Source of the DNA: Draconibacterium mangrovi
GTDB taxonomy: Bacteria > Bacteroidota > Bacteroidia > Bacteroidales > Prolixibacteraceae
NCBI RefSeq assembly: GCF_010586825.1
Contig: NZ_JAAAGB010000005.1
Span: 62,001-126,000 of the forward strand
Direction of reading: 5' to 3'
Length of the DNA stretch: 64,000 nucleotides
Of this stretch, positions 574 to 51,806 are shown piece after piece (position 1 is the first letter of the stretch; every line of letters starts with the position of its first letter). The translations under genes and the position numbers were made by a program. A model generated the notes under the pieces. That model saw only the letters and a list, made by a program, of their open reading frames with translations. It did not search any database and was not told the origin of the DNA.

Positions 574-1383
574 TTATCCCAAAGCAACATCCAACAGCAT
601 CATGGTAGCAAAACCCAACATGGCACCAATGGTCGATAAATCGGTTTCGTTGCCTCGCTGCGATTCCGGGATCAGCTCTTCAACCACCACAAAAATCATT
701 GCTCCGGCTGCAAACGAAAGTGCGTAAGGCAGCAGTGGTTCGATGGTTAAAACCAGGTAAGCTCCCAGCACTCCGGCCATTGGCTCTACAATTCCTGAAA
801 GCTGTCCGTAGTTAAAAGCTTTCCAGCGCGAGAGTCCCTCGCGGCGCAGCGGAATAGAAACTGCCGCTCCCTCGGGGAAGTTTTGCAGCCCGATTCCCAT
901 GGCTAAAGCAATGGCTCCGGTAAGAATCCCCATGTCGGGATTATTGGCCAGGGCACCAAAAGCAACACCCACAGCCAAGCCTTCAGGTACATTGTGTAAA
1001 GTTATAGCCAGCACCAAAAGGATGCTTCGTTGCCAGGTTGTTTGAATTCCCTCGGCTTTGTCGATAGACAAACCAAGGTGAAGGTGAGGCAGAATTTTGT
1101 CGATCAACAACAGAAAAGCACCTCCGGCCAAAAATCCGATAACTGCCGGCTTCCACGACAATTCTCCTTGTGCTTCTGCCATTTCGATTGCCGGTTTCAA
1201 AAGCGACCAGAAACTGGCGGCAATCATTACGCCTGCTGCAAAACCGAGCATCGAATTCAAAATCTTTTTATTTATCGACTTAAAGAAGAATACCATGGAG
1301 GCTCCGGCTGCGGTTAAAAACCACGTGAAAAGTGTAGCACCCAGTGCCAGTAATATGGGATTATATTCTAATAGTTTCTCCAT
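574..1383 (-). CDS. ZIP family divalent metal transporter (GufA-like)
   Basis: Inner-membrane transporter of the ZIP family, expected to import zinc or related divalent cations. The 269-residue protein has about eight hydrophobic helices. The family metal-binding signatures are present: HNVPEG at residues 130-135 and QNFPEG at 167-172, the paired histidine/glutamate sites of helices IV and V. The frame is open upstream to 1431, but the start at 1383 gives the normal N-terminus (MEKLLEYNP), and a TAnnTTTG element lies inside the longer version. It is a single gene next to the menaquinone operon, on the same strand, with about 90 bases between its start and the end of menE. Confidence 0.88.
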
Positions 1384-1419
1384 TATTCTAATTTTTGTAT
1401 CTAAACGAATAGGGTAAAA

Positions 1420-1427
1420 CAAAGCTA
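1420..1427 (-). promoter_or_regulatory. candidate -7 element for the ZIP gene
   Basis: The minus strand reads TAGCTTTG, a match to the Bacteroidota -7 consensus TAnnTTTG, 36 bases upstream of the chosen ATG at 1383. I do not see a good TTTG at the expected -33 spacing, so this is a partial match. Confidence 0.4.
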
Positions 1428-1471
1428 ACAAAATTATTGTTCAGCATTTTAAAGTCAGCTTTTGTTGTAGC

Positions 1472-2527
1472 CTAATTTTTTAAAATCAATTTCAACTTTT
1501 TTCGGTCTATCTTCCCATTTTCAGTGCGTGGAAGTTTTTCGATAAAACGGATGTCTTTTGGTTGCTCGTATTTTGAAAGCAATTTGGTGCAGTGGTTTTG
1601 AATGATGGTTTTAACTTCACCATCAACCTTTCCTTCAATTAGCAGAATTATTTTCTCTCCAAGATGTTTGTCCGGCGCCGAACTGATGGCATAGGGCAGG
1701 GGCATTTCTTTAGCCAATTTCTCCTCAATTTGTTCGGCCAGAAATTTTATGCCTCCGGAAATGATGACATTATCAACGCGGCCCAGTACTTTAAAATGAT
1801 TACTATCTTTTAATTCACCCAAATCGTTGGTTTGGATGGCGCCGTTTTCAAGTCCCTGCATTACAATACGAATACAATCACGTTCATCCAGTTCAACAGA
1901 AATATCATCGAGACATTGGTAGCTATCGGTTTTATTGCTGCCATTTAATTGGCGAAGTGCAATGTGAGTTGCTGTTTCGGTCATGGCGTAACTCGAATAA
2001 CATTGTGTCGAAATTTGTTGCAGCTGGTCTTCCAAAAGTTTTGGAATTGCAGAACCGCCGATCAACAGGTTTTCAATGTTTTGCTCAGGCAGTGCCAGGT
2101 ATTTTGTTACCTGGTTAATTACCATAGCAGCAAACTTTATGGGCTTATTGTCTGACAATTTTGTAAAGTCTGATGCCGGATCAATAAGCAATAAATCGAG
2201 TTTTCCAATAAGTGCCCGCACTGTCATTAGCTTTCCTGCAATGTATCGACTGGGCAAACAATGCAATATGCTGTCGCCATCCTGTAACTCAAAAAAGCGA
2301 ATGGTGCGCAATGCACTGGCTGCTACAAAATCCTTTTTTAGTGTTATGGTTTTTGGTGTTCCAGTACTGCCCGATGTTTGTACTTCTATATAATCATTTG
2401 TATTGTACCATTCTTCCAGAAATTCCAACCAGGTTTGTTCCCATTCGCTATCAGCTTTCTGTTGCAGCAACTCTTTTATGTTTTCCGATTGCCCGTTTAT
2501 GGTAATATGTGATGGAAACAGTTCCAT
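1472..2527 (-). CDS. menE: o-succinylbenzoate--CoA ligase (MenE)
   Basis: ATP-dependent ligase that activates 2-succinylbenzoate with CoA in menaquinone synthesis; cytoplasmic. This is the short adenylate-forming type (351 residues). It has the P-loop SGSTGTPK at residues 52-59, the YAMTET motif at 180-185, and a C-terminal ENGKIDRKKL segment holding the usual catalytic lysine. The frame is open far upstream (to 2713), but ATG at 2527 is chosen because it overlaps the menC stop as TAATG, a one-base overlap typical of translational coupling, and because the upstream residues are antisense-like with no domain match. Last gene of the men operon. Confidence 0.9.
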   Translation of the reverse strand: MELFPSHITINGQSENIKELLQQKADSEWEQTWLEFLEEWYNTNDYIEVQTSGSTGTPKTITLKKDFVAASALRTIRFFELQDGDSILHCLPSRYIAGKLMTVRALIGKLDLLLIDPASDFTKLSDNKPIKFAAMVINQVTKYLALPEQNIENLLIGGSAIPKLLEDQLQQISTQCYSSYAMTETATHIALRQLNGSNKTDSYQCLDDISVELDERDCIRIVMQGLENGAIQTNDLGELKDSNHFKVLGRVDNVIISGGIKFLAEQIEEKLAKEMPLPYAISSAPDKHLGEKIILLIEGKVDGEVKTIIQNHCTKLLSKYEQPKDIRFIEKLPRTENGKIDRKKLKLILKN

Positions 2528-3555
2528 TACATTTCGAATGATTTTGCGGTGTTGTACCACAGCTTTTCGCCACGAATTTCTAATGGAGAGGAAATATTGT
2601 TCGTAAAAAGCTGACCGGTTCCCAATCCCTGGTGCATGGTAGTGTTTTTGGTAAAAGCCCACTGAGCAATGGCGTTTAATCCTATATTCGACTCGAGGTA
2701 CGATGTGATCCACCAGCCTATAAAACGTTCGTTGGCCAGTTCAATCCATTCGTCGCAACCCGAAATGCCACCATGTAAACTGGGTTTTAAAACCAGGTAT
2801 TGTGGCTGTATTGTATCCAGTAGTTGTATTTTTTCTTCGCGTTTGTTGATACCGATTAACTCTTCATCTAAAGCAATCGGCAGGGGAGTGGTTTTACACA
2901 ATTCAGCCATTTTGTTCCATTGACCCGCAAGAATTGGTTGTTCTATGGAATGAAGTTGTACTTCTGCAAGCCTTTTCAATTTGACTGGAGCAGAATCTCC
3001 ATCGAAAGCACCGTTGGCATCTACCCTTAGAATAATCTGATCGCTGGAGAAACGCTCGCGAACAGCTTTTAATAATTCCAGTTCCAACTCAAAATCTTTC
3101 GCTCCGATCTTTAGTTTGATACATCGAAAACCGGCTGCCAGTTTATCTTCTATCTGGTCTTGCATGTTTTCAATTTCATTCATCCATATCAGTCCGTTGA
3201 TTGGAATACCGGCTTCTCCGCATGTAAAAGCTGATGGAAAAAGTTCTCTTTTTCTTCCATGTTTCAAATCCAGCAGTGCAGATTCCAGTGCAAATTTCAA
3301 GGATGAGAGATTTTGTAGCAAGTCAATATTATTGATGAAATTCTCAGGATTGGTAGATATTCTTTCCAGCTGTTCTTCAACTTGTTCAGGCGTTTCAATA
3401 CTCAATCCCGGAAGTGGAGCACATTCCCCAAGCCCCGTTACACCATTCTCTTCCAAAAACAGATACCAAACTGTGCGTGCTTTTAACACCTCGCGCGATG
3501 TTTCGGCAGGTTGTTTAAAATGCAACTCATATTTTTGGTAGCGTGCTTTTATCAT
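2527..3555 (-). CDS. menC: o-succinylbenzoate synthase (MenC), enolase superfamily
   Basis: Dehydrates SHCHC to o-succinylbenzoate. The 342-residue protein has the enolase-superfamily layout: N-terminal capping domain, then a TIM barrel with the K-x-K acid/base pair (KLK at 147-149), metal ligands at D179, E205 and D230, and the second base at K257 (LVLKPS). Some relatives are dipeptide epimerases, but position between menA and menE settles the assignment. The start overlaps the end of menA by four bases (ATGA), so the pair is probably translationally coupled. Confidence 0.9.
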   Translation of the reverse strand: MIKARYQKYELHFKQPAETSREVLKARTVWYLFLEENGVTGLGECAPLPGLSIETPEQVEEQLERISTNPENFINNIDLLQNLSSLKFALESALLDLKHGRKRELFPSAFTCGEAGIPINGLIWMNEIENMQDQIEDKLAAGFRCIKLKIGAKDFELELELLKAVRERFSSDQIILRVDANGAFDGDSAPVKLKRLAEVQLHSIEQPILAGQWNKMAELCKTTPLPIALDEELIGINKREEKIQLLDTIQPQYLVLKPSLHGGISGCDEWIELANERFIGWWITSYLESNIGLNAIAQWAFTKNTTMHQGLGTGQLFTNNISSPLEIRGEKLWYNTAKSFEM

Positions 3556-4457
3556 GATAGTAGCAATCCGAGCGAGAACAGTAACGTTAATGCCAAAGTT
3601 TGCAATGCCAGTCGTTTTAAAAACGGATCAAGCTGGCGGCTGTCTTTTATGCGGAATATTTTTACAAGGTCGATAATTGAAACCGGCAATACCAACAGAA
3701 ATAACCACTGCCACGCCGTTTTTTGTTGCTGAAGTGTAAAAACGATCAGCGCAATCCACGCCAATAAAATAATTGTTGCGTGGTAAATGCGACTTTTAAG
3801 TGGCCCAAGTTTTACTGCAATCGTAATTTTCCCCGACTCTTTATCGTTTTCAATGTCGCGGGTATTGTTCAGGTTTAAAACTCCTGTGCTGAATAATCCC
3901 ATACTAATGGCCGGCAGCCACACGACAGTTTCAATAACATTGTTGTGCAGGTAAAAAACACCGATCACGGGCAGCAGACCAAAAAAGAGAAATACAAACA
4001 AATCGCCTAGTCCAATGTAACCGTATGAACGTTTGCCGGCCGTGTAAAAATAGGCGGCTAAAAGAGCCAGTATTCCCAGTCCTATATATACAAAAAATGC
4101 TGTTGGACTGTGATGCCACGTTCCAACAAAAACCAAAATAATTCCCAACAGAAAACTTAATCCGGCAATTACAGACATCCCGGATTTCATTTCTTTGATG
4201 GTAATCTCGCCACCCTGCATCGTTCGTGTTGGCCCCAAACGCTGATGATTGTCGGTGCCTTTTTGAAAATCACCGTAATCGTTGGCAAAGTTCGAAAACA
4301 CCTGTATCAACGTGGCAGTAAGCATTGCAAGAATAAAAATTTGCCAGTTAAACCCATGCCAAAATGCTGCCAGTGCCGAGCCCATTAAAATGCCCGACAA
4401 TGCCAGAGGCAAGGTGCGTAACCGTGATGCTTTTACCCAACTTTTTGCTGTTGCCAT
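3552..4457 (-). CDS. menA: 1,4-dihydroxy-2-naphthoate polyprenyltransferase (MenA)
   Basis: Integral membrane UbiA-family enzyme that prenylates DHNA to demethylmenaquinone. The 301 residues include about eight to nine hydrophobic helices and the prenyl-diphosphate/Mg-binding motif NFANDYGDFQKGTDN at residues 56-70 (D60, D63). A second acidic motif, NTRDIENDKESG, follows in the middle of the protein. It overlaps menC by four bases at its end; about 130 bases of A/T-rich, partly repetitive spacer separate it from menB upstream. Confidence 0.93.
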   Translation of the reverse strand: MATAKSWVKASRLRTLPLALSGILMGSALAAFWHGFNWQIFILAMLTATLIQVFSNFANDYGDFQKGTDNHQRLGPTRTMQGGEITIKEMKSGMSVIAGLSFLLGIILVFVGTWHHSPTAFFVYIGLGILALLAAYFYTAGKRSYGYIGLGDLFVFLFFGLLPVIGVFYLHNNVIETVVWLPAISMGLFSTGVLNLNNTRDIENDKESGKITIAVKLGPLKSRIYHATIILLAWIALIVFTLQQQKTAWQWLFLLVLPVSIIDLVKIFRIKDSRQLDPFLKRLALQTLALTLLFSLGLLLS

Positions 4458-4474
4458 ACTTGATACTTGATGCT

Positions 4475-4588
4475 AGATTTTGGATACTTGATACTGGATA
4501 CCCCGACGCTGCGGTCGGGATTTGACTGTGGCCGATTTTCAATTCGCTTCGCTCAACTCGTAACTCGTGGCTCGTATCTCGCGGCTTT
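4475..4588. repeat. short copy of the dispersed heptamer-phased spacer sequence
   Basis: Between menA and menB there is a stretch with actcgtaactcgtggctcgt, the same 7-base-phased wording that fills the large intergenic spaces at 38.0-39.3 kb and 42.0-42.5 kb, plus short direct repeats of gatacttgat. It is the only such copy inside the men operon and may be a recent insertion in the spacer. Confidence 0.5.
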
Positions 4589-41860: not shown

Positions 41861-42540
41861 GGTGAATGATTTAATGCTTTAATGAGCAGTAGCTTTGTAA
41901 AATTGCCTACTGCGATTTTGCCAACTGCCTACTTGTTGCAGATTGATCTTAAGATTGATGGAGATTGAATGAGATTGAGGGATTGAAGGACTGAATGTTG
42001 GAATGCTTAAATGCGTGAATGCAAAAATGCTTTAATAAAAACACACAACAAGTAACCAATGACTCACAACTCGTATCTCGTAACTCGTGGCTCGCAGCTA
42101 GTAACTAGCGGCTCGCAGCTTTGATTCATCCTTCATCCTTCATCCTTAATCCTTAATCCTTCCATTCGGTTTGCCACGGTCGTTCCTCCCTCGCAATGAC
42201 ATTATTTGTTAGCTAAAGTCGGCAGCGGACAATGAATGATTTCATCCGGGCACGATTCACCACTGTCCGCTGCCCTGACACTCAATACTATCGAGTCATT
42301 GCGATACCGATGAGTTAACGAATCGGTAGAAGCAATCTCTATCAACCAGCAACCAGCAACTCGCAACTCGTATCTAGTAACTCGTGGCTCGCAGCTAGCA
42401 ACCAGCGGCTCGCAACTCGTAGCTCGTAGCTTTGATTCATCCTTCATCCTTAATCCTTAATCCTTCATCAATAATCCTTCTATTCAATTTAATACAGTTA
42501 TCCCTCTGCAGCACAACATTGTAATTCATACCCAAAAAGA
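41861..42540. repeat. heptamer-phased tracts, GCAGCGGACA hairpin and related modules
   Basis: Two long tracts keep strict 7-base phasing (42061-42165: ctcgtaa-ctcgtgg-type units, then tcatcct/taatcct units; 42352-42485 likewise). Between them are the cgttcctccctcgcaatgac module (42181-42200), a hairpin of GGCAGCGGACA (42221-42231) with TGTCCGCTGCC (42264-42274), and tcattgcgataccgatgagt-to-gaagcaatctct (42297-42342) with an ACCGAT/ATCGGT stem. The short open frames here are translations of repeats. Confidence 0.85.
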
Positions 42541-42558
42541 AATACCAATAAATAAAAA

Positions 42559-42975
42559 ATGGAAAACCAAAACTACCCCGGAGTTTTTGTAAGAGTAAAA
42601 GCAGTGATAACCGACTCGGTAATCCTTTTGATTTTTATGCTGGGCATTGTTGCTTTGTTCGATCGTTTCGAAAACGTTCCCGATTTTGCACGGATAGCGG
42701 CATTTGTATTTATTTTCCTGCTTTACGACCCGCTTTTTACCAGCATCTTTGGCGGAACAATTGGTCATTTTCTGTTTGGAATTCGCGTAAAACGAGCCAA
42801 CAACCCGGAGAAGAATATTCTTTTCCCGCTGGCAGTAATCCGCTACATCATAAAAGCTTTGCTGGGCTGGCTTTCCTTAATCACCGTAAGCGGCAATAAA
42901 AAGGCAAAAGCCATACATGATATTGTGGTACAATCGATAGTTATTTATAAACATCCTGTTGCTGCGATCAACTAA
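42559..42975 (+). CDS. RDD family membrane protein
   Basis: 138 residues with three hydrophobic helices. The family name residues are visible: R and D in the first helix (VRVKAVITDSVILL) and D in the second (LLYDPLF), and the GGTIGHFLFGIRV motif is typical. RDD proteins are small transport- or stress-related membrane proteins of poorly known function. A degraded copy of its 3' end lies at 43645-43731. Confidence 0.85.
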   Translation: MENQNYPGVFVRVKAVITDSVILLIFMLGIVALFDRFENVPDFARIAAFVFIFLLYDPLFTSIFGGTIGHFLFGIRVKRANNPEKNILFPLAVIRYIIKALLGWLSLITVSGNKKAKAIHDIVVQSIVIYKHPVAAIN

Positions 42976-43058
42976 TCCTTCGTGTCCTCTTTTGTTTTAA
43001 CTAAACAATAGTTACTTTTATAACACATACTCAAAAGAGCAAACAAACATTTCCGGTC

Positions 43059-43622
43059 ATGAGAAATTACAAACTGTTGTTTATCCTGATCCTTATCCTC
43101 CCGCTTGGAGCCTGTATTTTCGATAACGACGACGATGGGCCAATGTTCTATCTGTTTGTTGAAGGTTATACTGAAGTGGACGGCGTATTGATTTCCGGCC
43201 CCGAACCACCGGTGCTACATATTGATTTTCCTACCTATCGCTACAATGAAGACCTGCATACACTAAATGGTATCATCGATTTTGAGATGAATAAAGACCT
43301 CAAATTTATTTACGGCGGAGGAACCTGTTTAACGGGTACAGCAGGTGCCGGTTGTGCTACGGGGCTCACCGGAGTTTACGAAATACCTTTTAAACACGCC
43401 GCGTTTGAATTGCTGAAAATTGAAACCGACGGTACCATTCGGTTTATATACGATGACGAAGTTTTTAGCCTGGCTGTAAATGAAGAACATGCCGTGCTTA
43501 CCTCCTCCATAGATACAAGCGATGTAAATGGGGTAATTAGCATCTCCGAAATTACAAGTACACATACCATATCGAATTTTGGTTTTATCGAAGAGGAAGA
43601 TATTATTCCGTGGGAGTGGTAA
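43059..43622 (+). CDS. lipoprotein of unknown function (187 residues)
   Basis: Signal peptide with lipobox LGAC, then an acidic linker (FDNDDDGP) and a soluble, probably beta-rich domain. A Cys pair (CLTGTAGAGC) may form a disulfide. No family is recognised. It lies between the intact RDD gene and the RDD gene remnant. Confidence 0.75.
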   Translation: MRNYKLLFILILILPLGACIFDNDDDGPMFYLFVEGYTEVDGVLISGPEPPVLHIDFPTYRYNEDLHTLNGIIDFEMNKDLKFIYGGGTCLTGTAGAGCATGLTGVYEIPFKHAAFELLKIETDGTIRFIYDDEVFSLAVNEEHAVLTSSIDTSDVNGVISISEITSTHTISNFGFIEEEDIIPWEW

Positions 43623-43644
43623 GCGGAGAAGACGATACTTTTAA

Positions 43645-43731
43645 AAAGCAAAAGCCATCCATGATATTGTGATACAATCAAGTTTTATTTATAAAAACCC
43701 AGTCGGCACGCAAAACCCTAAAAACCAATAA
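43645..43731 (+). pseudogene. 3' remnant of a second RDD family gene
   Basis: The frame reads KAKAIHDIVIQSSFIYKNPV and then GTQNPKNQ before TAA, closely matching the C-terminus of the intact RDD protein (KAKAIHDIVVQSIVIYKHPV). A TAA lies directly upstream and there is no start codon, so only the last 29 codons or so of the paralog survive. Its stop codon abuts the ATG of the next gene (TAAATG), suggesting that the next gene was once downstream of this RDD copy in an operon. Confidence 0.75.
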
Positions 43732-44484
43732 ATGACACGAATTAAACTCGAAACACTATTCACTTCAAACATTCCGGTGGACTGCCACCTTTTAAAAGGC
43801 CGGTTGGAAACCGAAGGCATCGATTGTTTTCTTTTTGATGAAAATATAGTTTGGGTACATCCCTTTCGGGCGGTTGCCGTTGGAGGTGTAAAACTAAAAG
43901 TACCGTCGCACCAGCTTGAGCCGGCCGCTGCACTGCTCGAACACCTGAAAAAAGGCTGTTTGCCGGATGAAATGGGGGAGTACAAAATCAGCGAAATCCT
44001 TCAGTCGGAATACCACAGGCAACAGGAGATTTTAAGCATCAAATCGGCAATTCGTAATAACCCGGCTTTGCTGGATAAGCCTGCTGAAATAAAAACCACG
44101 CTGTTAAACCCCGCCGAAGTGGCTGAAATTGTTGAAGAAGAAAAGGAATTTCAAGTGCTGGCGAACAAAAAATTACATTTTACCTGGGATGATTTTTTCT
44201 ATGAATTGTTCGATTTCGACCGCGACGTATTTAAGTATTTGCGAACCCGCCCGGTTGAATATTACCTGGATAAAGAGCTGGTAGATCGGTATAATTCCCG
44301 TGCCGCCGACGAACATGCGCTTATTTGCCCCAACTGTAAATCGGATAACACCAAATACGGATTTGCGATCGACTACAAATGGGATGTGTTGTACCTGGTT
44401 TTGTCGCTGCTATTCAGTACTCCTTTCCCCTTGATCCGTAAAAAATCGCATTGTTTCGATTGCGGCCACAATTTTAACGCCTAA
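43732..44484 (+). CDS. DUF2007 protein with C-terminal zinc ribbon
   Basis: 250 residues. The N-terminal 75 residues (LFTSNIPVDCHLLKGRLETE, then VGGVKLKVPSHQLEPAAALL) match the DUF2007 'putative signal transducing' domain. The middle is helical and acidic. The C-terminus has a zinc ribbon, CPNCKSDNTKYGF and CFDCGHNF, with a hydrophobic stretch (VLYLVLSLLFSTPFPL) between the Cys pairs that could dip into the membrane. Function unknown. The gene starts immediately after the RDD remnant. Confidence 0.82.
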   Translation: MTRIKLETLFTSNIPVDCHLLKGRLETEGIDCFLFDENIVWVHPFRAVAVGGVKLKVPSHQLEPAAALLEHLKKGCLPDEMGEYKISEILQSEYHRQQEILSIKSAIRNNPALLDKPAEIKTTLLNPAEVAEIVEEEKEFQVLANKKLHFTWDDFFYELFDFDRDVFKYLRTRPVEYYLDKELVDRYNSRAADEHALICPNCKSDNTKYGFAIDYKWDVLYLVLSLLFSTPFPLIRKKSHCFDCGHNFNA

Positions 44485-44995
44485 AAAGCGATCATCACCC
44501 AGTGACCAAAATGACCAGTGACCAATGACCAATGCCCAGTGACTAATGACAAATGACCAATGACCAATAACTCGCAACTCGTGTCTCGCAGCTCGTAACT
44601 CTTTTAATCCCCTTGATTATCAAAACTTTTCCACAATTATTTTATTTTATGTAAACAAATGTTATTTTTAACACTCCTTACCCGGTCACAGAGAAGATTT
44701 CGTTGTGTTGGAAAGACCCCGGAAGTACTTGGATTAGCCGTTTGTAAACGACTATCCGTTAGCTGGCGGATTTGTAAATGTTTACAAGCGGATAGATTAT
44801 TTGAAATAAACAACTTATAAGAAAATCTAATTTTGACGCTATAAGCGATGTATGGGTAATATACTTATACGTACGTTATGCAACATTTTAAATCAAGAGA
44901 TATGACAATTAAATATGAAATGTAAAACAAGATTTCAAGGACTATTTTTTAAAATAAAATGCTTTCTCTATTATCTAAAAATTTATAACTCAAAT
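44485..44995. other. spacer with heptamer tract and REP-like palindromes
   Basis: 44498-44610 carries gaccaatgaccaatgcccag-type and ctcgcaactcgtgtctcgca-type 7-base tracts. 44739-44793 has stacked palindromes: CGTTTGTAAACG, ATCCG...CGGAT and TTGTAAATGTTTACAA. The sequence becomes strongly A/T-rich from about 44610. GTTATGCAAC at 44875-44884 marks the left border of the SIR2 unit. No gene seen. Confidence 0.6.
44875..44884 (+). other. left border site of the SIR2 two-gene unit
   Basis: GTTATGCAAC is the exact reverse complement of GTTGCATAAC at 47059-47068, which follows the stop of the SIR2 gene by five bases. In an integron cassette the first bases (TTATGC) and the R'' site of the terminal attC (GCATAAC) are complementary in just this way. 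Confidence 0.5.
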
Positions 44996-45850
44996 ATGAC
45001 TGATGAATTAAAAGATAACTTTCCTTATGTAATGCTGGATAGAACATTTTCAGAAAAAGAAGTGAAGAAAAATTACTCAAGTTTAAGTGTAAAATCCTCA
45101 GCTCTTACGAAATCATGGAATGATACAATTAACTCTCAGTGGACTATAAGGGATTTCATAGCGATTAAAATGATATTGTCATCAACAATATTATTAAGCT
45201 CTGTCGAACATGCAAATAAAGTAAATCTTAAAATTGTAGAACCATACCTTTTATACTACTCTCTTCTTAATTGCGCACGAGCAGTTGTTTTGACCTCTCC
45301 ATTCGTGGAATGGAATGAAGATGACTTATTTACAATGACACATTCAAAAACAATAAATTTACTTGGAGATATAGTTGCAAAATATAACAAAACAAAGGGT
45401 GCTGAGATTAGAAAGTTTATTGTTTGGGCTAGAGAATATCGAGAGATATTTTCCTATAAATTTCCTGCGAATGGATTAACTAATCATCACTTATCAAGCA
45501 TAGAAGTCATTGATAACTGTAAGATTATGTGCGAAATTGCTCAATTTCAGAGTAAAGTTCTAGAAAATTCAATATGCAAAAATGTAAAAGGTGAATTTAA
45601 CTTTGACCAAAATTACTTTGAAGTAGGATATATTTATGGGAAGGATAATTTTCAATTCATTGACGAGGAAGATTGGTACAGACTTTCATATATCAATAGA
45701 AAGCAAAAAAGACCATATAGCATACATTCTACAATGACGGAGGGAATGGTTGAGGATTTCATTGGAGCTTGGTGTACAGAGGATGAAATTGAATCTGATT
45801 TGATATATAATCCTGACTTAAATTGGCAAATTATTTTTCCACTTCCTTAA
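44996..45850 (+). CDS. unknown protein paired with SIR2 protein (284 residues)
   Basis: Protein beginning MTDELKDNFPYVMLDRTFSE. It is mostly helical with no signal peptide. The centre contains a segment EPYLLYYSLLNCARAVVLT that is reminiscent of HEPN or YaaC-like helical domains, but the catalytic RxxxxH of HEPN nucleases is not evident. I do not recognise a family. It precedes the SIR2 gene by 39 bases on the same strand, in an A/T-rich segment unlike the neighbouring core genes. A sensor, inhibitor or second effector for the SIR2 enzyme are the options. The frame is open 27 codons further upstream, but the chosen ATG gives a more natural N-terminus. Confidence 0.72.
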   Translation: MTDELKDNFPYVMLDRTFSEKEVKKNYSSLSVKSSALTKSWNDTINSQWTIRDFIAIKMILSSTILLSSVEHANKVNLKIVEPYLLYYSLLNCARAVVLTSPFVEWNEDDLFTMTHSKTINLLGDIVAKYNKTKGAEIRKFIVWAREYREIFSYKFPANGLTNHHLSSIEVIDNCKIMCEIAQFQSKVLENSICKNVKGEFNFDQNYFEVGYIYGKDNFQFIDEEDWYRLSYINRKQKRPYSIHSTMTEGMVEDFIGAWCTEDEIESDLIYNPDLNWQIIFPLP

Positions 45851-45889
45851 AAATATGCAACACAATTTTTACAATTAAACTAAACCAAG

Positions 45890-47053
45890 ATGAGCAATAT
45901 TTATGAATATATAAATGCATCTCAAAAAATGATTGAGAACATTGAAAATATGAAACTCAACTATTCTACCAGCTATATGAATATGTTGAAGAGTAGTATT
46001 GCTACAATAAATAGATTAAACATTGAAAATCTTACTCACAAATTACCTGCAACAAGGAAGTCTACTTCTAAAACAGCAATTCGTAATTTAAAAATAGCTT
46101 TTAAAGATGGCAGTCTCAATTTAGTTTTAGGTGCAGGTATTTCTTCTATATATGGCTTACCCAATTGGAATAACCTTCTGCAAAGACTTTTATTTAAAAC
46201 AATTGAAGAAGAGCCTCAAAAAGCCTCCGTTATTTCAAAAGTATTTACTAAACTATTCAATCCAAATCCGCTAGTTGCAGGTCGTTATCTACAAGAAACA
46301 CTCATCGATGAGAAGATTAAAAACAAATTTGAAAAAGATGTTCGAAGTGCTCTCTATGAAACATATGATAAAGATGTGGAATCGCATATAATGGATGAGA
46401 TAATTAAGTTGTGTGTTGCCCCTGGCAACAGTCCCAATCTAGATGGTATAATAACCTACAATTATGATGATGTTATAGAAACAAAACTTAATGAAAAAGG
46501 TATAGACATACCATTTCAGTCTGTATATGGTCAAGGTATCAATCCTGATAACAAATCATTACCAATTTACCATGTTCATGGATATCTACCCCAGAAAGGA
46601 AGAATAAACATACATAACTCTATAACTTTAGGTGAATTTGTTTACCATGAGCAGTACAACAATATCTATAGTTGGAATAATATTGTCCAAATAAATAAGT
46701 TCAGAGATAAGGTTTGTCTTTTTATAGGAATATCACTTTCTGACCCAAATATTCGTCGTTTATTGGATATTGCAAATTCTCAAAAGACTAAGAAAAAGTA
46801 CCATTATATTCTGAAAATAAGACCAGAAAGAAACTGGGTTGAAGAAAGATTAAGGAAGATATTAGATGAAAATCCTGAAATCTTTAATGAAAAAGTAATA
46901 GCAAATATTGACTTTGATGAGACGGTTAGCTTTCTGATGGAAATGCAAAATAGATTTGAAGAAAAAGACACAGAGTCTTTGGGAGTGAAAACTGTATGGA
47001 TAGATGACTATGATAGAGATATTTCGGAAATACTCAAAAAAATTAGAGAATAA
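45890..47053 (+). CDS. SIR2-like domain protein, predicted NADase of a defence system
   Basis: 387 residues. After an N-terminal helical part (1-70) comes a SIR2-type domain: NAD-binding LVLGAGIS (78-85), TYNYDD (189-194), HVHG with the catalytic-type H230 (228-231), and FIGISLSDPNIRRLL (278-292). This is the SIR2_2 pattern of bacterial antiphage proteins (compare ThsA, DSR and AVAST-type effectors), which usually cleave NAD and stop growth rather than deacetylate. The C-terminal 90 residues are unassigned. Pairing with the upstream unknown gene suggests a two-component abortive-infection system; that is inference. Confidence 0.85.
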   Translation: MSNIYEYINASQKMIENIENMKLNYSTSYMNMLKSSIATINRLNIENLTHKLPATRKSTSKTAIRNLKIAFKDGSLNLVLGAGISSIYGLPNWNNLLQRLLFKTIEEEPQKASVISKVFTKLFNPNPLVAGRYLQETLIDEKIKNKFEKDVRSALYETYDKDVESHIMDEIIKLCVAPGNSPNLDGIITYNYDDVIETKLNEKGIDIPFQSVYGQGINPDNKSLPIYHVHGYLPQKGRINIHNSITLGEFVYHEQYNNIYSWNNIVQINKFRDKVCLFIGISLSDPNIRRLLDIANSQKTKKKYHYILKIRPERNWVEERLRKILDENPEIFNEKVIANIDFDETVSFLMEMQNRFEEKDTESLGVKTVWIDDYDRDISEILKKIRE

Positions 47054-47058
47054 AAAAC

Positions 47059-47193
47059 GTTGCATAACACATTGTATATGGCAGGCGGGGATTTCAGCGG
47101 TATGACAAGTCAGACCTTCTGCTCACTCTCCTGCGGGTCTGACTGGATTTCTCTTCGAAATCTCGCCCGACCACATTAAAGTGATTGTTGGCG
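47059..47193 (+). other. attC-like imperfect hairpin after the SIR2 gene
   Basis: Starts GTTGCATAAC (47059-47068) and ends GTTGGCG (47187-47193). Inside are a perfect 9-base stem, AGTCAGACC (47108-47116) with GGTCTGACT (47136-47144), and an outer imperfect stem, GGCGGGGATTTC (47084-47095) with GAAATCTCGCCC (47157-47168), with an unpaired base as in folded attC sites. Length, simple sites at the ends and an imperfect palindrome fit an integron attC, but no integrase gene is in the window and the core sites deviate from the common consensus. Confidence 0.45.
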
Positions 47194-47237
47194 TTCATTG
47201 AAGGGAATCTCCGAACAATAAAGGAAAATATTAAAAT

Positions 47238-48983
47238 ATGGATTTTTATAGAAAAACAACTTTAGGATTATTTGATAGTTCACAGAAGTCATTCACAATA
47301 CCTGTATATCAAAGAGCATATTCTTGGGAGAAACCAGAATGGAAAACGTTTCTAAATGATTTGATAGAACAAATTGAAGGAGGAAACAATTACTTTTATG
47401 GTAACCTTTTGCTCGAGACGATAAAGAAAGATGTTAAATATGAAATCATTGACGGACAACAAAGAATAACGACACTAACCATATTTATACGTTCTATATT
47501 AAATGTTTTAGCTACACGAAAATCGGAAAGTGAATTAAAGGATTTTGACTTTTTAACTAAAGAGACAATTTTCTTGAAAAACGGAGGGAACATAAAATTA
47601 CGTCCTGTAGAATATGATAGAGCATGTTATGATGCATTGATCGTTGACAATAAGGATAAATATGAAGTTAGTACACAATCTCAAGAAAGAATTAAGGAGG
47701 CAAAAAACTATTTTATTGTTGAGCTTTCAAAATTGCCTACAGAAAAGATTTTAAACATTCTTGAAAAAATTGAAGGAACTGATTTGACTGTTATTGAATT
47801 AGCAGGGAAAAAGGATTCTGCATTAATGTTTGAGCTTGAAAATAACAGAGGTAAAGACTTGACAAACATGGAAAAAATCAAGTCTTATTTCATGTATCAA
47901 ATGTATGTATACAGCGAGCCTGAAGAAACGGAATCTAATATTGAGAATGTATCTAATATTTTCAAACTTATTTATTTACTTATCAATGACTATAAACGCT
48001 TAAATGAGGATAGTGTCTTAATTTATCACAATAATGCTTACATAAAGGGGTATAACTACAGAACATTAAATGATATAAAAGAGGTATTTAAGTCATCTGA
48101 AAATAAAGTTGAATGGATTAAAAATTACATTTCAGAACTTCATACTTCATTCTCAAATATGAAGAAATATGAGCAGTCAGATGATGACTATTCTGCAAAA
48201 TTATTTGAACTGAAAGCTCCCGCATTTATTTATCCATTTATCATCAAAGGATATAAGTATTTTGGAGATGATAAGAAGAAATTGAACACTCTATTTCGAG
48301 TGTTGGAGATTTTAACATTTAGAGCCAAACTAATTAATAGTCGTGCCAATATTCAAGAACGTTTGAATTCAATTCTATTATCATTCAATGGAGATTTACC
48401 ATCGTTGATTACTGCAATTAAGAATAAGCTGAATGAATCTTGGTATTGGGGTGATTCTAATGTTAAAAACTATTTAAACGGAGGGATGTATGGAAATGGA
48501 GTATTGAACTACCTCCTTTGGCAATATGAAAACTCGATACAAAATAAAGGTTATAAAATAAAAAAGTTCTCATTGGATAATGAGCAGATAGAACACATTT
48601 CTCCAAGAACACCCAGAGTGGGAGAAGAACTAACCTGCGGATACGATGTAAATGAAGAAAATGAGTATTCCGAAGAGTTTATATCAAACAAATTGAATTC
48701 ATTGGGTAATCTAATGTTAATTTCAGGTTCACATAATGCATCGATTGGAAATAAAGCGTTCAAAGAAAAACTAGAATCATATAAAAAGAACCCATTATTA
48801 AATCAGCAAGCAGAAATAAAAGATTATGCTGAGTTAGAGAATGATAACGCAATTTGGAAAACTTCATCAATTGATAAAAGACATACTGATATTGTGAGCT
48901 TTGCTAGAAAAAAGTGGAGTTTCGACTCTATCGATGTAAAATACTTGATTCCAACATTAGAAGAATATTTGGAGAATAATTAA
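47238..48983 (+). CDS. DUF262/DUF1524 protein, GmrSD-like type IV restriction nuclease
   Basis: 581 residues. N-terminal DUF262 domain: IPVYQRAYSWEK (21-32) and the nucleotide-binding/hydrolysis motif DGQQR (72-76). C-terminal DUF1524 HNH-type domain: QIEHISPR (about 449-456), then LNSLGNLMLISGSHNASIGN with the conserved N residues. Fused DUF262-DUF1524 proteins (GmrSD, BrxU-type) cut modified phage DNA using NTP. It follows the attC-like hairpin and is equally A/T-rich, so it probably belongs to the same accessory island as the SIR2 pair. Confidence 0.86.
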   Translation: MDFYRKTTLGLFDSSQKSFTIPVYQRAYSWEKPEWKTFLNDLIEQIEGGNNYFYGNLLLETIKKDVKYEIIDGQQRITTLTIFIRSILNVLATRKSESELKDFDFLTKETIFLKNGGNIKLRPVEYDRACYDALIVDNKDKYEVSTQSQERIKEAKNYFIVELSKLPTEKILNILEKIEGTDLTVIELAGKKDSALMFELENNRGKDLTNMEKIKSYFMYQMYVYSEPEETESNIENVSNIFKLIYLLINDYKRLNEDSVLIYHNNAYIKGYNYRTLNDIKEVFKSSENKVEWIKNYISELHTSFSNMKKYEQSDDDYSAKLFELKAPAFIYPFIIKGYKYFGDDKKKLNTLFRVLEILTFRAKLINSRANIQERLNSILLSFNGDLPSLITAIKNKLNESWYWGDSNVKNYLNGGMYGNGVLNYLLWQYENSIQNKGYKIKKFSLDNEQIEHISPRTPRVGEELTCGYDVNEENEYSEEFISNKLNSLGNLMLISGSHNASIGNKAFKEKLESYKKNPLLNQQAEIKDYAELENDNAIWKTSSIDKRHTDIVSFARKKWSFDSIDVKYLIPTLEEYLENN

Positions 48984-48990
48984 CAACGAA

Positions 48991-49016
48991 ACCTCCGCTG
49001 GCGCGGATTTGTAAAC
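48991..49016. repeat. REP-like palindromic unit
   Basis: CCTCCGCTGGCGCGGATTTG followed by TAAACC, the same wording as at 49584-49616 and 56841-56870. Confidence 0.5.
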
Positions 49017-49077
49017 CCTACTACTAAATAGAAACGAACAACATTCAATAACAACACTACTAATTAAAACCTACAAA

Positions 49078-49257
49078 ATGAAAACAAACATTATTATTTA
49101 CATCGTAAGCCTTGTAATACTGATTGCAGGAATAATTTTAACCGTTGAGAATCCCGGTTCAGGATGAATGCAAATGATAGCCGGAGGGGTAACCTTTTTA
49201 GGACTTACACTGAATATTCTGGGTTTTTCGTTGCGCATCAGGCAAAAAAGAAATTGA
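49078..49257 (+). pseudogene. small two-helix membrane protein gene interrupted by in-frame TGA
   Basis: ATG at 49078 gives MKTNIIIYIVSLVILIAGII, then LTVENPGSG and a TGA at 49165-49167; the same frame continues MQMIAGGVTFLGLTLNILGF to a second stop at 49255-49257. Both halves are plausible transmembrane helices, so the natural reading is a 59-residue protein with TGG changed to TGA. A sequencing error is possible. No selenocysteine signal was recognised. Confidence 0.6.
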
Positions 49258-49293
49258 ACAAACACCGCTGCAGTGAATCACTTCGCTTAGTGA

Positions 49294-49585
49294 TAATAAC
49301 AACCACTAATAACTAAATCATATAATTATGACCGACAAACAAGTAACAAAAGTAATTGGAATCATTTATTTTATCGGAGCAGTAATGGTGCTGACGGGCG
49401 CATTTTTCAGACTTCAACATTACCCATACGGATTATCACTGTTGTTCCTGGGATTTATGCTTGGTGCAGTAAGCAGTGCTTTTGATATCTCCAGGTTAAA
49501 AAAGAAAATAAAACGATTGGAAAAACAACTACATCAAAACCTGGATTAAAACACCGCTACCGCGCCCCAGAAGGTTAGGGGCATC
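49294..49585 (+). repeat. 292-bp direct repeat, copy 1
   Basis: From taataacaaccactaataac to gttaggggcatc, including a whole 73-codon gene. Copy 2 is at 50163-50453, almost identical. Confidence 0.88.
49328..49549 (+). CDS. small two-helix membrane protein, copy 1
   Basis: 73 residues: two hydrophobic helices (KVIGIIYFIGAVMVLTGAFF; GLSLLFLGFMLGAVSS) joined by RLQHYPYG, then a basic coiled-coil tail (RLKKKIKRLEKQLHQ). The GAFFRLQHYPYG hairpin is like the first part of GldL-type gliding/secretion proteins, but this is far shorter and no gld gene is nearby. It differs from copy 2 in only four residues. Function unknown. Confidence 0.75.
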   Translation: MTDKQVTKVIGIIYFIGAVMVLTGAFFRLQHYPYGLSLLFLGFMLGAVSSAFDISRLKKKIKRLEKQLHQNLD

Positions 49586-49616
49586 CTCCGCTGGCGCGGA
49601 TTTGTAATCCGTGCCT
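49584..49616. repeat. REP-like palindromic unit
   Basis: Contains GCTGGCGCGGATTTGTAATC ending CGTGCC; GGATTTGTAATCC is a near-perfect palindrome. Confidence 0.5.
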
Positions 49617-49651
49617 CGGTTGAAACAAGCGAAAAAATAAAATCAAGATTA

Positions 49652-50086
49652 ATGACCACTTTATCATTTCTTCATAAAAATGGGCTAATCAAACTTACTC
49701 AAAAAAGAGTTGAGCAATGGTATAGAATGCAGGATACGTCGAAACTCGTTTTTGCCTTGGAGAATGGTTTGTATGATGTTAGGTTGTTAGCGGCTAAACA
49801 TTTAGGAAATTTAAGAGCTGTAAATGCGGTTTCGGCGCTTAGAAAAAGTTTAAATGATAAGGTGAAATTAGTTTCGCTTGAATCAGCACAGGCATTACGT
49901 AAATTAACGAACGACCCGGTTATAATAGCAGAGATTGATAACAAACTTAAATATTGGGAGGAAGAAGAAGAAAAAGAGCAAAACCGAGTTATTAATAATG
50001 AGGTTCACAATGAAATGCCCAAATGGAAAAAGAGAGACTGGGTTGGGATTGTGAAAGAAATGCTTAAAAAACCAATGCGATGGTAA
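49652..50086 (+). CDS. HEAT-repeat-like protein (144 residues)
   Basis: After an N-terminal helical segment, the stretch LVFALENGLYDVRLLAAKHL, then NAVSALRKSLND and VKLVSLESAQALRKL shows two or three HEAT/PBS-lyase-type helical pairs. The C-terminus is charged with a helical EEEEEKEQNR segment. Such short HEAT proteins mediate protein contacts. It lies between the two copies of the 292-bp direct repeat, so it may have arrived with, or been enclosed by, that duplication. Confidence 0.7.
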   Translation: MTTLSFLHKNGLIKLTQKRVEQWYRMQDTSKLVFALENGLYDVRLLAAKHLGNLRAVNAVSALRKSLNDKVKLVSLESAQALRKLTNDPVIIAEIDNKLKYWEEEEEKEQNRVINNEVHNEMPKWKKRDWVGIVKEMLKKPMRW

Positions 50087-50162
50087 ATTCCGGATTTAAA
50101 CTATAATTATAATTTTTACTACCGCTGCCGCGCCCCCGAAACTTCGGTGCAACGAGCAGTGT

Positions 50163-50453
50163 TAATAACAACCACTAATAACTAAATCAAATAAGATGAC
50201 CGACAAACAAGTAACAAAAGTAATTGGAATCATTTATTCTATCGGAGCAGTAATGGTTCTGGTGGGCGCATTTTTCAGACTTCAACATTATCCATACGGA
50301 TTATCACTATTGTTCCTGGGATTCATACTTGGTGCAGTAAGCAGTGCTTTTGATATCTCCAGGTTAAAAAAGAAAATAAAACGATTGGAAAAACAACTAC
50401 ATCAAAACCTGGAGTAAAACACCGCTGCCGCGCCCCAGAAAGTTAGGGGCATC
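50163..50453 (+). repeat. 292-bp direct repeat, copy 2
   Basis: Near-identical to 49294-49585, including flanking bases on both sides of the gene, so the duplication is recent. Confidence 0.88.
50196..50417 (+). CDS. small two-helix membrane protein, copy 2
   Basis: 73 residues, the same as the protein at 49328 except for S/F, V/T, I/M and E/D changes. All but one are conservative, which suggests that both copies are still translated. Two transmembrane helices and a basic coiled-coil tail. Confidence 0.75.
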   Translation: MTDKQVTKVIGIIYSIGAVMVLVGAFFRLQHYPYGLSLLFLGFILGAVSSAFDISRLKKKIKRLEKQLHQNLE

Positions 50454-50504
50454 GCGCGGTTTTTGCTCCGAATGGGGGAAACAAAGCGGAATATTTGATT
50501 TAGT

Positions 50505-50827
50505 GGAGGGGAAACGAAAATTTGCGTAACTATTCGTTGCCCTTACGAACAACGCTTAAACGTTTCGGACCTTTGGCTCTTTTCGTTTAGGATATCAAAT
50601 AATCCCGTAGGGATTTGATTTTAGTAAGCCCGGATGAATGATCCGTCGGCAGATGGAGCGAGAAATCCGGGGGTAAAAGGTAAACCGGAAAAGGCGCATC
50701 AGCCAAAGCAGATCAGGGCACGGAAGATCTATGCGCCGCAATTAGCAAAGTTAAATCACCACCCCGTCAGCGAAAGCATATGAATCATCAGAGTTAAAAT
50801 CTCATATCGCTGCCACCCCTCCTGGCA
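50505..50827. repeat. 323-bp tandem repeat, copy A
   Basis: Begins ggaggggaaacgaaaa. Contains CGTTG/CAACG and ggaccttt elements related to the four-hairpin module at 38 kb, AATCCC-gta-GGGATT, and a GCCCGGAT...ATCCGGG stem. No gene. The stretch 50454-50504 before it (acaaagcggaatatttgatt) is also found at about 55993-56012. Confidence 0.85.
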
Positions 50828-51150
50828 GGAGGGGAAACGAAAATCTGCGTAACTATTCGTTGCCCTTACGAACAACGCTTAAACGTTACGGACCTTTGGC
50901 CCTTTTCGTTTAGGATATCAAATAATCCCGTAGGGATTTGATTTTAGTAAGCCCGGATGAACGATCCGTCGGCAGACGGAGCGAGTAATCCGGGGGTAAA
51001 AGGTAAACCGGAAAAGGCGCATCAGCCAAAGCAGATCAGGGCAGGGAAGATCTATGCGCCGCAATTAGCAAAGTTAAATCACCACTCCGTCAGTGAAAGC
51101 ATATAAATCATCAGAGTTAAAATCTCATATCGCTGCCACCCCTCCTGGCA
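50828..51150. repeat. 323-bp tandem repeat, copy B
   Basis: Second copy, with only scattered substitutions. The remaining bases to 51314 are a non-coding leader of the next gene with no clear promoter match. Confidence 0.85.
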
Positions 51151-51314
51151 GTAGGGGAAATTAAATCAGTGGGGAGGTGGTTTTTTATTTTATCACCTCA
51201 ACCGACCATAGTTCAAAACAGGATTTGCAAAAGCCCATAATTTACCATAACTTGTATACTTATTAACCAAATACTATAAAACGTAACCTTTTTAATAACT
51301 AAAACCCACAAATT

Positions 51315-51806
51315 ATGGCAACCAAAACACCTACGGGGATTCCCGAGCCGGTAATTAACGAGGCTAGCCAGTTAATTACAAATGCACTTATCGTTTTAAA
51401 ATCTTATTTAATTGCTTTAACGCCCCACGAGCGGCAGATCAGCGCCAAAATCAGCGATCGTTCCTATCCTTTTGTGGAAAAAACGTGCGATTATACGCTT
51501 TTGGCCCCTGAGTATGTTCCTCAATACATGGATGCCGAAAAGCTGCGCACCGATCTGCAGGTACACGACCAGCTGATTGAACTGCTGCGCATAAGCAAAC
51601 AGCTTACCAACGGACTGGATGATTCGGCATTAAAAACCGGTGGCGATAGTTTCACCAATGCCCTTAATTATTACAACTCGGTTCGGCAGGCATCGCGCAT
51701 TAATGTGCCCGGAGCCAAAAGCATTTACGAGGATTTGAAAAAACGTTTTATCCGAAGCAATTACGCTAAGGATACGGGGCAAAATGAACAGCCGGAAGAA
51801 GATTGA
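51315..51806 (+). CDS. unknown helical protein, paralog 1 (163 residues)
   Basis: Cytoplasmic, mostly helical, no signal peptide. It shares with the protein at 52377 a common pattern: an N-terminal helix, LIALTPHERQISAKISDRSY-like central segment, FVEKTCDYTLLAPEYVPQYM, a VHDQLIELLR helix and the C-terminal VPGAKSIYEDLKKRF. I recognise no family or function. An acidic tail ends the protein. Confidence 0.75.
   Translation: MATKTPTGIPEPVINEASQLITNALIVLKSYLIALTPHERQISAKISDRSYPFVEKTCDYTLLAPEYVPQYMDAEKLRTDLQVHDQLIELLRISKQLTNGLDDSALKTGGDSFTNALNYYNSVRQASRINVPGAKSIYEDLKKRFIRSNYAKDTGQNEQPEED

Follow-up and report, generated by a model that had tools for sequence, protein, structure and literature searches.

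A hairpin-bordered SIR2 gene unit in Draconibacterium mangrovi as a probable integron-type cassette with an unusual candidate recombinase

The window considered here is a stretch of 64,000 nucleotides from the Bacteroidota member Draconibacterium mangrovi (contig NZ_JAAAGB010000005.1, positions 62,001 to 126,000), and the element in question is a unit of two genes, one of them with a SIR2 domain, which lies, like the solo attI before it and the GmrSD-type unit behind it, on the + strand. The first gene (44915-45850, 311 aa), delimited as an open reading frame and submitted to profile scans, had no counterpart in Pfam, PADLOC or NCBIfam at E 0.001; the second (45890-47053, 387 aa) encodes a SIR2_2 domain in residues 186-319, as identified by profile scans. 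The unit opens at its 5' end with GTTATGCAAC (44875-44884), whose exact reverse complement, GTTGCATAAC (47059-47068), is located directly behind the stop codon of the SIR2 gene and represents the R'' core of an attC site; all 10 of the 10 bases agree, both by direct reading and by script. An imperfect attC-like hairpin of 134 bases, recognised by folding, alignment and a covariance model, extends from 47060 to 47193 and terminates in GTTGGCG (47187-47193, direct reading), the R' core that is at once the end of the attC and the start of the next unit. Directly before the cassette lies a dispersed element of ~240 bp (44634-44874), called here a solo attI, which carries no recombinase gene, ends in the imperfect inverted repeat GTATGGGTAATATACTTATACGTAC (44850-44874) and has similar counterparts in related genomes. 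The SIR2 unit is read as a mobile cassette within an integron-type system, with a probability of roughly 0.87, and an integron-type platform as such appears very likely.

The borders can be set against a chance control of 3583 GTT positions (no preceding C, 4.5 kb ahead) in 23 sequences, with no hairpin required, among which an exact 10-base partner within 4.5 kb was found for 54 (1.5%) and an exact 9-base partner for 169 (4.7%). Folded as single-stranded DNA, the bottom strand of the hairpin is better than its shuffles (z -2.26, 4 of 200 equally good), the top strand reaching z -1.18 with 23 of 200 equally good; this asymmetry matches the attC expectation. Covariance model R2, trained on 40 hairpins of relatives with the window and its own genome left out, scores the window hairpin at 57.6 bits (E 1.6e-12 in 119 kb) as its sole match in the window up to E 1, and also detects sites elsewhere in the own genome, in loci L027-L031, at 20.9 to 81.5 bits. 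An Rfam search of the window locus returned one snoRNA match only, at chance level, and a pattern for the hairpin start had no match in viral contigs. The sequence-only reading, made from the letters of the window, had described the inverted borders, a hairpin of some 130 bases ending in GTTGGCG, and a complementarity of 5' end and R'' that follows the integron rule; these points were borne out, as was its statement that the window holds no integrase, there being no phage-integrase domain in it and all 12 of the Pfam matches in the genome lying elsewhere. Its remark that the unit is A/T-rich holds as well: 500-base bins between 44500 and 48999 have a GC content of 0.29-0.34, those to the left (42500-44499) reaching 0.40-0.43 and those to the right (49000-51499) 0.37-0.47. 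The low-GC stretch exceeds the SIR2 unit, running from ~44500 to ~49000, taking in the GmrSD-type gene to the right and ending with it.

Units of the same build were collected by a strict scan, for which GTT, a 9-base partner without mismatch and a hairpin that folds were conditions and orientation was left free. It returned 77 distinct cassettes with paired ends, 76 from the genus and one from G026, a genome of another family of the order, with a median length of 1318 bp (range 689-4533) and an R''-to-R' hairpin of 119-129 bp in 65 of the 77. The cassettes carry one or more genes, and all 82 of their open reading frames (ORFs) with 100 aa or more are directed towards the attC, as are 86 of the 92 with 60 aa or more. 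The left 9-mers are of 51 different kinds. Because the ends co-vary cassette by cassette while the hairpin stays constant, the rule is that of an integron and not that of a transposon, and this bears on an alternative already raised in the sequence-only reading, namely another kind of excising element that has inverted borders of 10 bp and is unrelated to integrons, for example a transposon-like one. The inverted ends visible in the window speak for such an element, yet a transposon would have constant ends, no transposase match was obtained for either ORF of the unit, and the borders are common to neighbours in chains, where the R' closing one attC opens the next cassette (five consecutive cassettes in L046, four in L032, three in L044 and in L050). 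A transposon-like element with fixed ends is ruled out by this variation among cassettes, and the alternative as a whole must be called highly improbable. Pairs at chain ends, such as a second step in the window at 47348, were dropped as chance, and a looser pair list (309 candidates, one mismatch allowed), most of which is chance, entered none of the counts.

Evidence for a conserved structure comes from 66 aligned sites, i.e. the window and 65 others, whose consensus hairpin has 19 pairs, 15 of them with changes on both sides; one compensated pair is realised as UA in 34 sites, GC in 17, AU in 11 and CG in 2. GTT/AAC is retained in all 66, in part by selection, and the pair count leans toward structure because this very alignment served to predict the structure and its sites had been chosen for folding. 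The conserved intergenic motif is represented by hairpin alignment A4 in the genus arrays and was followed by eye in the gaps of the gut loci L052 and L053. Model R1, in whose training the window site was included, matches 36 of the 37 genus genomes at E 1e-4, with 1 to 89 hairpins each and 28 in the own genome. The same hairpin was indeed found beside other genes: its left half is strongly repeated at three other places of the own genome, two of which have exact 10-base ends, CTTAGCGGTA/TACCGCTAAG and GTTAGGCTTA/TAAGCCTAAC, the best end candidate of the third being GTTAGGGTGC/GTACCATAAC with two mismatches. The SIR2 gene was found in one of the 37 genus genomes (E 1e-10), namely the own genome. 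The outcomes that the sequence-only reading had named as refuting, a lack of covariance-model support with the hairpin missing from relatives or the two genes constantly present in them, did not arise. Short tandem repeats were seen by eye upstream of two solo cassettes of the own genome (L029, 2040-2290, and L028).

The element in front of the SIR2 cassette recurs in relatives, and their copies of it stop at the same base, each then continuing into different sequence. At best the core inverted repeat of the attI reads GTATGTGTAA-TACAC-TTACACATAC, immediately before GTT; in the window it is degenerate (7 of 12 positions), the other copies of this type having 7 to 10. The pattern of a solo attI occurs at 26 places in 10 of the 37 genomes, and the downstream sequence was viewed at ten of the 26 (the window, L086, L087 and L089 to L095). 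Solo attIs located only by their likeness to the left flank of the window have an exact 9-base downstream partner in six of the nine listed matches that extend to this boundary, as against 4.7% of the controls. Different cassettes at corresponding attI sites provide indirect signs of an excision and insertion that may proceed through a circle. For contig C22 of the own genome (G000) and contig C16 of G002, the left flanks agree at 96-97% across 2.6 kb as far as the GTT of the attI and the right flanks are alike from the R' GTTAAC onwards (differing once within the initial 38 bases, with 87-88% identity in further pieces), with unrelated cassettes between them, two versus one. The counterpart of the window site in G012 consists of the left gene (81% at the amino acid level), the attI, another cassette with the exact 10-base ends GTTAGGGCAC...GTGCCCTAAC and an attC at L095:14570-14702, and then a gene like that of the right flank of the window (60%). 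In G002 the right flank of the window (pieces 92-96%) stands behind an attI and another cassette whose ends have one mismatch, the left gene being found elsewhere. Two solo attIs of G024 (C5:369680-369977 and C5:470229-470526) were observed beside C-terminal recombinase remnants of 88 aa, which suggests a possible origin of solo attIs.

A candidate for the enzyme is encoded in the own genome on contig C6, as an open frame for a tyrosine recombinase of 378 aa with its catalytic motifs in place. At 91 bp past its stop, behind a palindrome, lies GTTGTGTGTA; 2 kb further on follow TACACACAAC and a hairpin, and one more start, GTTACCTGC, precedes the end of the contig. As the attI on C6 has another palindrome than the solo attIs, the attI types differ. 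The sequence-only reading had taken the SIR2 unit for a lone, CALIN-like cassette, and here it has to be revised. The genome contains the 28 R1 matches and, on C6, a recombinase with an attI-like site and a cassette. A CALIN comprises at least two attC in a cluster with no integrase close by, and the window unit is no such case because it stands behind an attI-like site and has a single attC, the one model match in 64 kb. The C6 locus also bears on the possibility that the cassettes are degenerate, immobile remnants, once mobile but belonging to a system that no longer works in the own genome. The imperfect attI repeat of the window, the adjoining GmrSD unit without attC and the two recombinase remnants of G024 would fit such decay; the intact frame on C6 and the different cassettes that close relatives carry at corresponding sites speak against it, and it is regarded as improbable.

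Relatives of the recombinase (40-69% identity) were taken from 14 of 24 further genus genomes, together with a more distant relative in G016 and two members of other families in the order. The first paired end was identified in 15 of the 21 loci, at 43-126 bp past the recombinase stop. The XerA model NF040815 accepts the recombinase (223 bits against a cut-off of 220), whereas the IntI model TIGR02249 stayed under its cut-off of 265 in the two members scanned (210.6 and 216.1 bits). According to two papers, the additional domain (I2) is a defining trait of IntI (PMC9668308, PMC7790495), and the latter further states that no other proteins have been found to contain I2, that single-strand recombination is tied to it, and that the Xer recombinases, the nearest relatives of IntI, are without it. 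The distance from the catalytic lysine to HxLRH amounts to 64-65 residues in 16 of 20 family members, as against 106-107 in 13 of 13 IntI, all of which possess the additional domain by this spacing; the remaining four members have 79-80 residues counted from an earlier lysine, with no insertion there in alignment A2. By alignment A2 and spacing, I2 was thus found in none of the 20, nine of which were aligned with an IntI. The family carries an extra N-terminal domain that weakly resembles XPB/HARP DNA-binding folds. A profile search of solved structures with this domain gave an unrelated partial match to CapG (E 0.0016) and no HARP, and a HARP origin is only suggestive. The profile of the domain matches 39 of 395 evenly drawn Bacteroidota genomes, or 28 of 171 genera. 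The best 80 of 498 places encoding recombinase relatives fall in Bacteroidales, Flavobacteriales, Saprospiraceae and Cytophagales and include five metagenome bins labelled non-Bacteroidota (L130, L132, L140, L150, L193). A recombinase remnant at the start of L030 was an impression from a few codons, and tblastn found none.

Canonical IntI proteins have to be considered as well. They exceed the cut-off in 105 of the 395 evenly drawn phylum genomes, so that integrons are not rare in Bacteroidota, for which the sequence-only reading had called them not commonly described. An integron review includes Bacteroidota in its list (PMC8618304), and in another paper attC models were built for 11 taxa, Bacteroidota not included (PMC8352920). 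IntI was observed to be common in Bacteroidota outside the class of the window (loci L204-L215). The cassettes might then belong to laterally acquired canonical IntI integrons, with the local XerA-like recombinase not being their mover. Besides the abundance of IntI, a strong R1 hairpin (62.9 bits) in G277, a genome outside those matched for the N-terminal domain and for IntI, is in line with this explanation. It is opposed by the genus itself: IntI above cut-off is found in none of 25 genus genomes (12 further ones being unsearched for IntI), yet hairpins occur in 36 of 37, and the arrays start close behind the XerA-like gene. The explanation is held to be unlikely.

Several observations weigh against the interpretation of the SIR2 unit as a mobile cassette moved by the recombinase family, some of them shared with the explanation by canonical IntI. 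Hairpins beside IntI genes of other Bacteroidota are matched by R1, weakly, at 3 of 13 loci (best 32.9 bits), and paired ends lie ~170 bp behind IntI in L204, L210 and L211; because of both, the sites are possibly shared with IntI systems. In the gut loci L052, L053 and L134-L136, as in L124 and L125, no hairpin is detected by R1. The window locus has no recombinase gene, and the link between recombinase and hairpin rests on association. At the level of the ends, the consensus of integron core sites is GTTRRRY / RYYYAAC, to which GTTATGC and GTTGGCG of the window do not strictly conform in their RRRY part; the invariant AAC:GTT and part of the pairing were built in by the selection of the scan. 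Of the solo attIs, L086 pairs with one mismatch and L087 and L088 have no credible partner; an exactly empty attI allele was not found, no systematic search having been made. The GmrSD unit has no attC recognised by the covariance models. Recombination as such was not observed. On balance, the case for cassette and platform remains strong, and the enzyme link, with mobilisation by a recombinase without I2, is likely, if unproven.

It can be envisaged that the cassette would be excised as a circle, its hairpin folding on the bottom strand, and that the C6 recombinase acting in trans, or a similar one, would join it to the attI at the GTT step, the target in the window being the solo attI at 44634-44874. 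Because the recombinase is without I2, the folded site would have to be recognised by other means, perhaps by the N-terminal domain. In its widest form, to which about even odds may be given, the proposal is that of a second, IntI-independent integron lineage, in which an I2-less XerA-like recombinase would act on folded single-stranded attC hairpins, read by its appended N-terminal structure-specific DNA-binding domain, and would bring cassettes, many of them for defence, into arrays and dispersed solo attI landing pads; the gut immunity arrays known as rAID (recombinase-associated acquired interbacterial defence) would then be a branch of it.

With regard to cargo, 84 proteins were scanned (the 82 cassette ORFs and the two of the window). 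The 25 of 164 PADLOC families listed include mad3, mad8, AriA, LmuB, PtuA, KwaB and a type IIG enzyme, besides several PDC candidates, and the 25 of 54 Pfam families listed AAA and AbiEii-like ATPases, SMC_N, Eco57I and RhuM, next to sulfatase, TonB plug and an IS91-type transposase as non-defence cargo. Judged by such profiles, the cargo is accessory and often defence-like. The top PADLOC models for the SIR2 protein of the window are ThsA and LmuA; it is a probable NAD-consuming defence effector, and the gene pair probably a SIR2-based defence unit. Relatives of the SIR2 gene are present in 5 of the 395 phylum genomes, the own genome counted, and the 311-aa partner was not found beside the four others (loci with ~1.5 kb on each side), so that within this range the two genes do not recur as a unit. 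In G277, which belongs to a different family of the phylum, a gene whose product matches the SIR2 protein (L218 884-2421, 39%) begins directly behind the R1-model attC of 62.9 bits. To the right of the SIR2 cassette, a GmrSD-type restriction gene (47238-48983, profile and model scans) follows a cassette-like start in a unit from 47187 to 48990, probably a former cassette that is now without attC. Between 49328 and 51160 a 73-aa ORF occurs in two copies (49328 and 50196), and a duplication of ~240 bp (50599-50837 and 50922-51160) matches one place in L086 with both copies.

The hairpin of the window thus leads to what appears to be a widespread integron-type system with an unusual recombinase. 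If true, a hairpin-cassette system under an enzyme without I2 would put the I2 requirement directly to the test and would amount to convergence; the task of integrons may here be accomplished in a second way. It would offer an answer to the question how the orphan immunity genes of rAID are collected, the Bacteroidota cassette reservoir would be a place to seek new defence systems, and attI, attC and recombinase might become a tool for gut Bacteroides.

Among known systems, the closest one described is rAID from gut Bacteroidales. The genus arrays and the C6 locus share with it a homologous tyrosine recombinase upstream of short co-oriented genes, which the window locus does not have; conserved intergenic motifs are a further common trait. 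Two gut plasmid arrays encode homologous recombinases (~51% identity), that of L052 grouping inside the family in the tree, with immunity genes of the type VI secretion system (T6SS) behind them, and several of their gaps contain ~50-bp hairpins with paired ends, seen by eye and uncounted, for example ATTACCAATA with TATTGGTAA in L053. Because the gut hairpins are shorter and R1 finds none of them, the link to rAID rests on the recombinase and on these paired ends. In contrast to rAID as described, the present system has attC of ~130 bp, a recognisable attI and dispersed solo attIs; orphan T6SS immunity genes are the cargo by which rAID has been described, whereas the cargo here is wider and partly defence-like, with defence-type and other families among the matches listed (the 25 of 164 and 25 of 54 families mentioned above), immunity families not having been sought singly. 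The main text of a 2025 preprint calls the biogenesis mechanism of rAID an "area of active research" and does not use the word "integron" (PMC12247911). No paper treating rAID as integron-type, nor, going by titles, any on the present system among those on integrons and attC in Bacteroidota, was found in the searchable literature, outside of which most subscription papers lie, and the integron reading may be published already.

The canonical sedentary chromosomal integrons are resembled in the attC-type hairpin, the pairing of 5' end and R'', the attI beside the recombinase, and co-oriented arrays with the same polarity of ends. The differences lie in a recombinase that follows the XerA model and not that of IntI, without the additional domain and with an extra N-terminal one, in paired ends of 9-10 bp, and in the solo attIs. 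With the Xer recombinases (XerA 4a8e/5hxy, XerC/XerD), finally, the family has the catalytic core and the absence of an I2 block in common, and it is set apart from them by its N-terminal domain, its attI/attC-type context and a C-terminal PL motif that aligns with IntI4.

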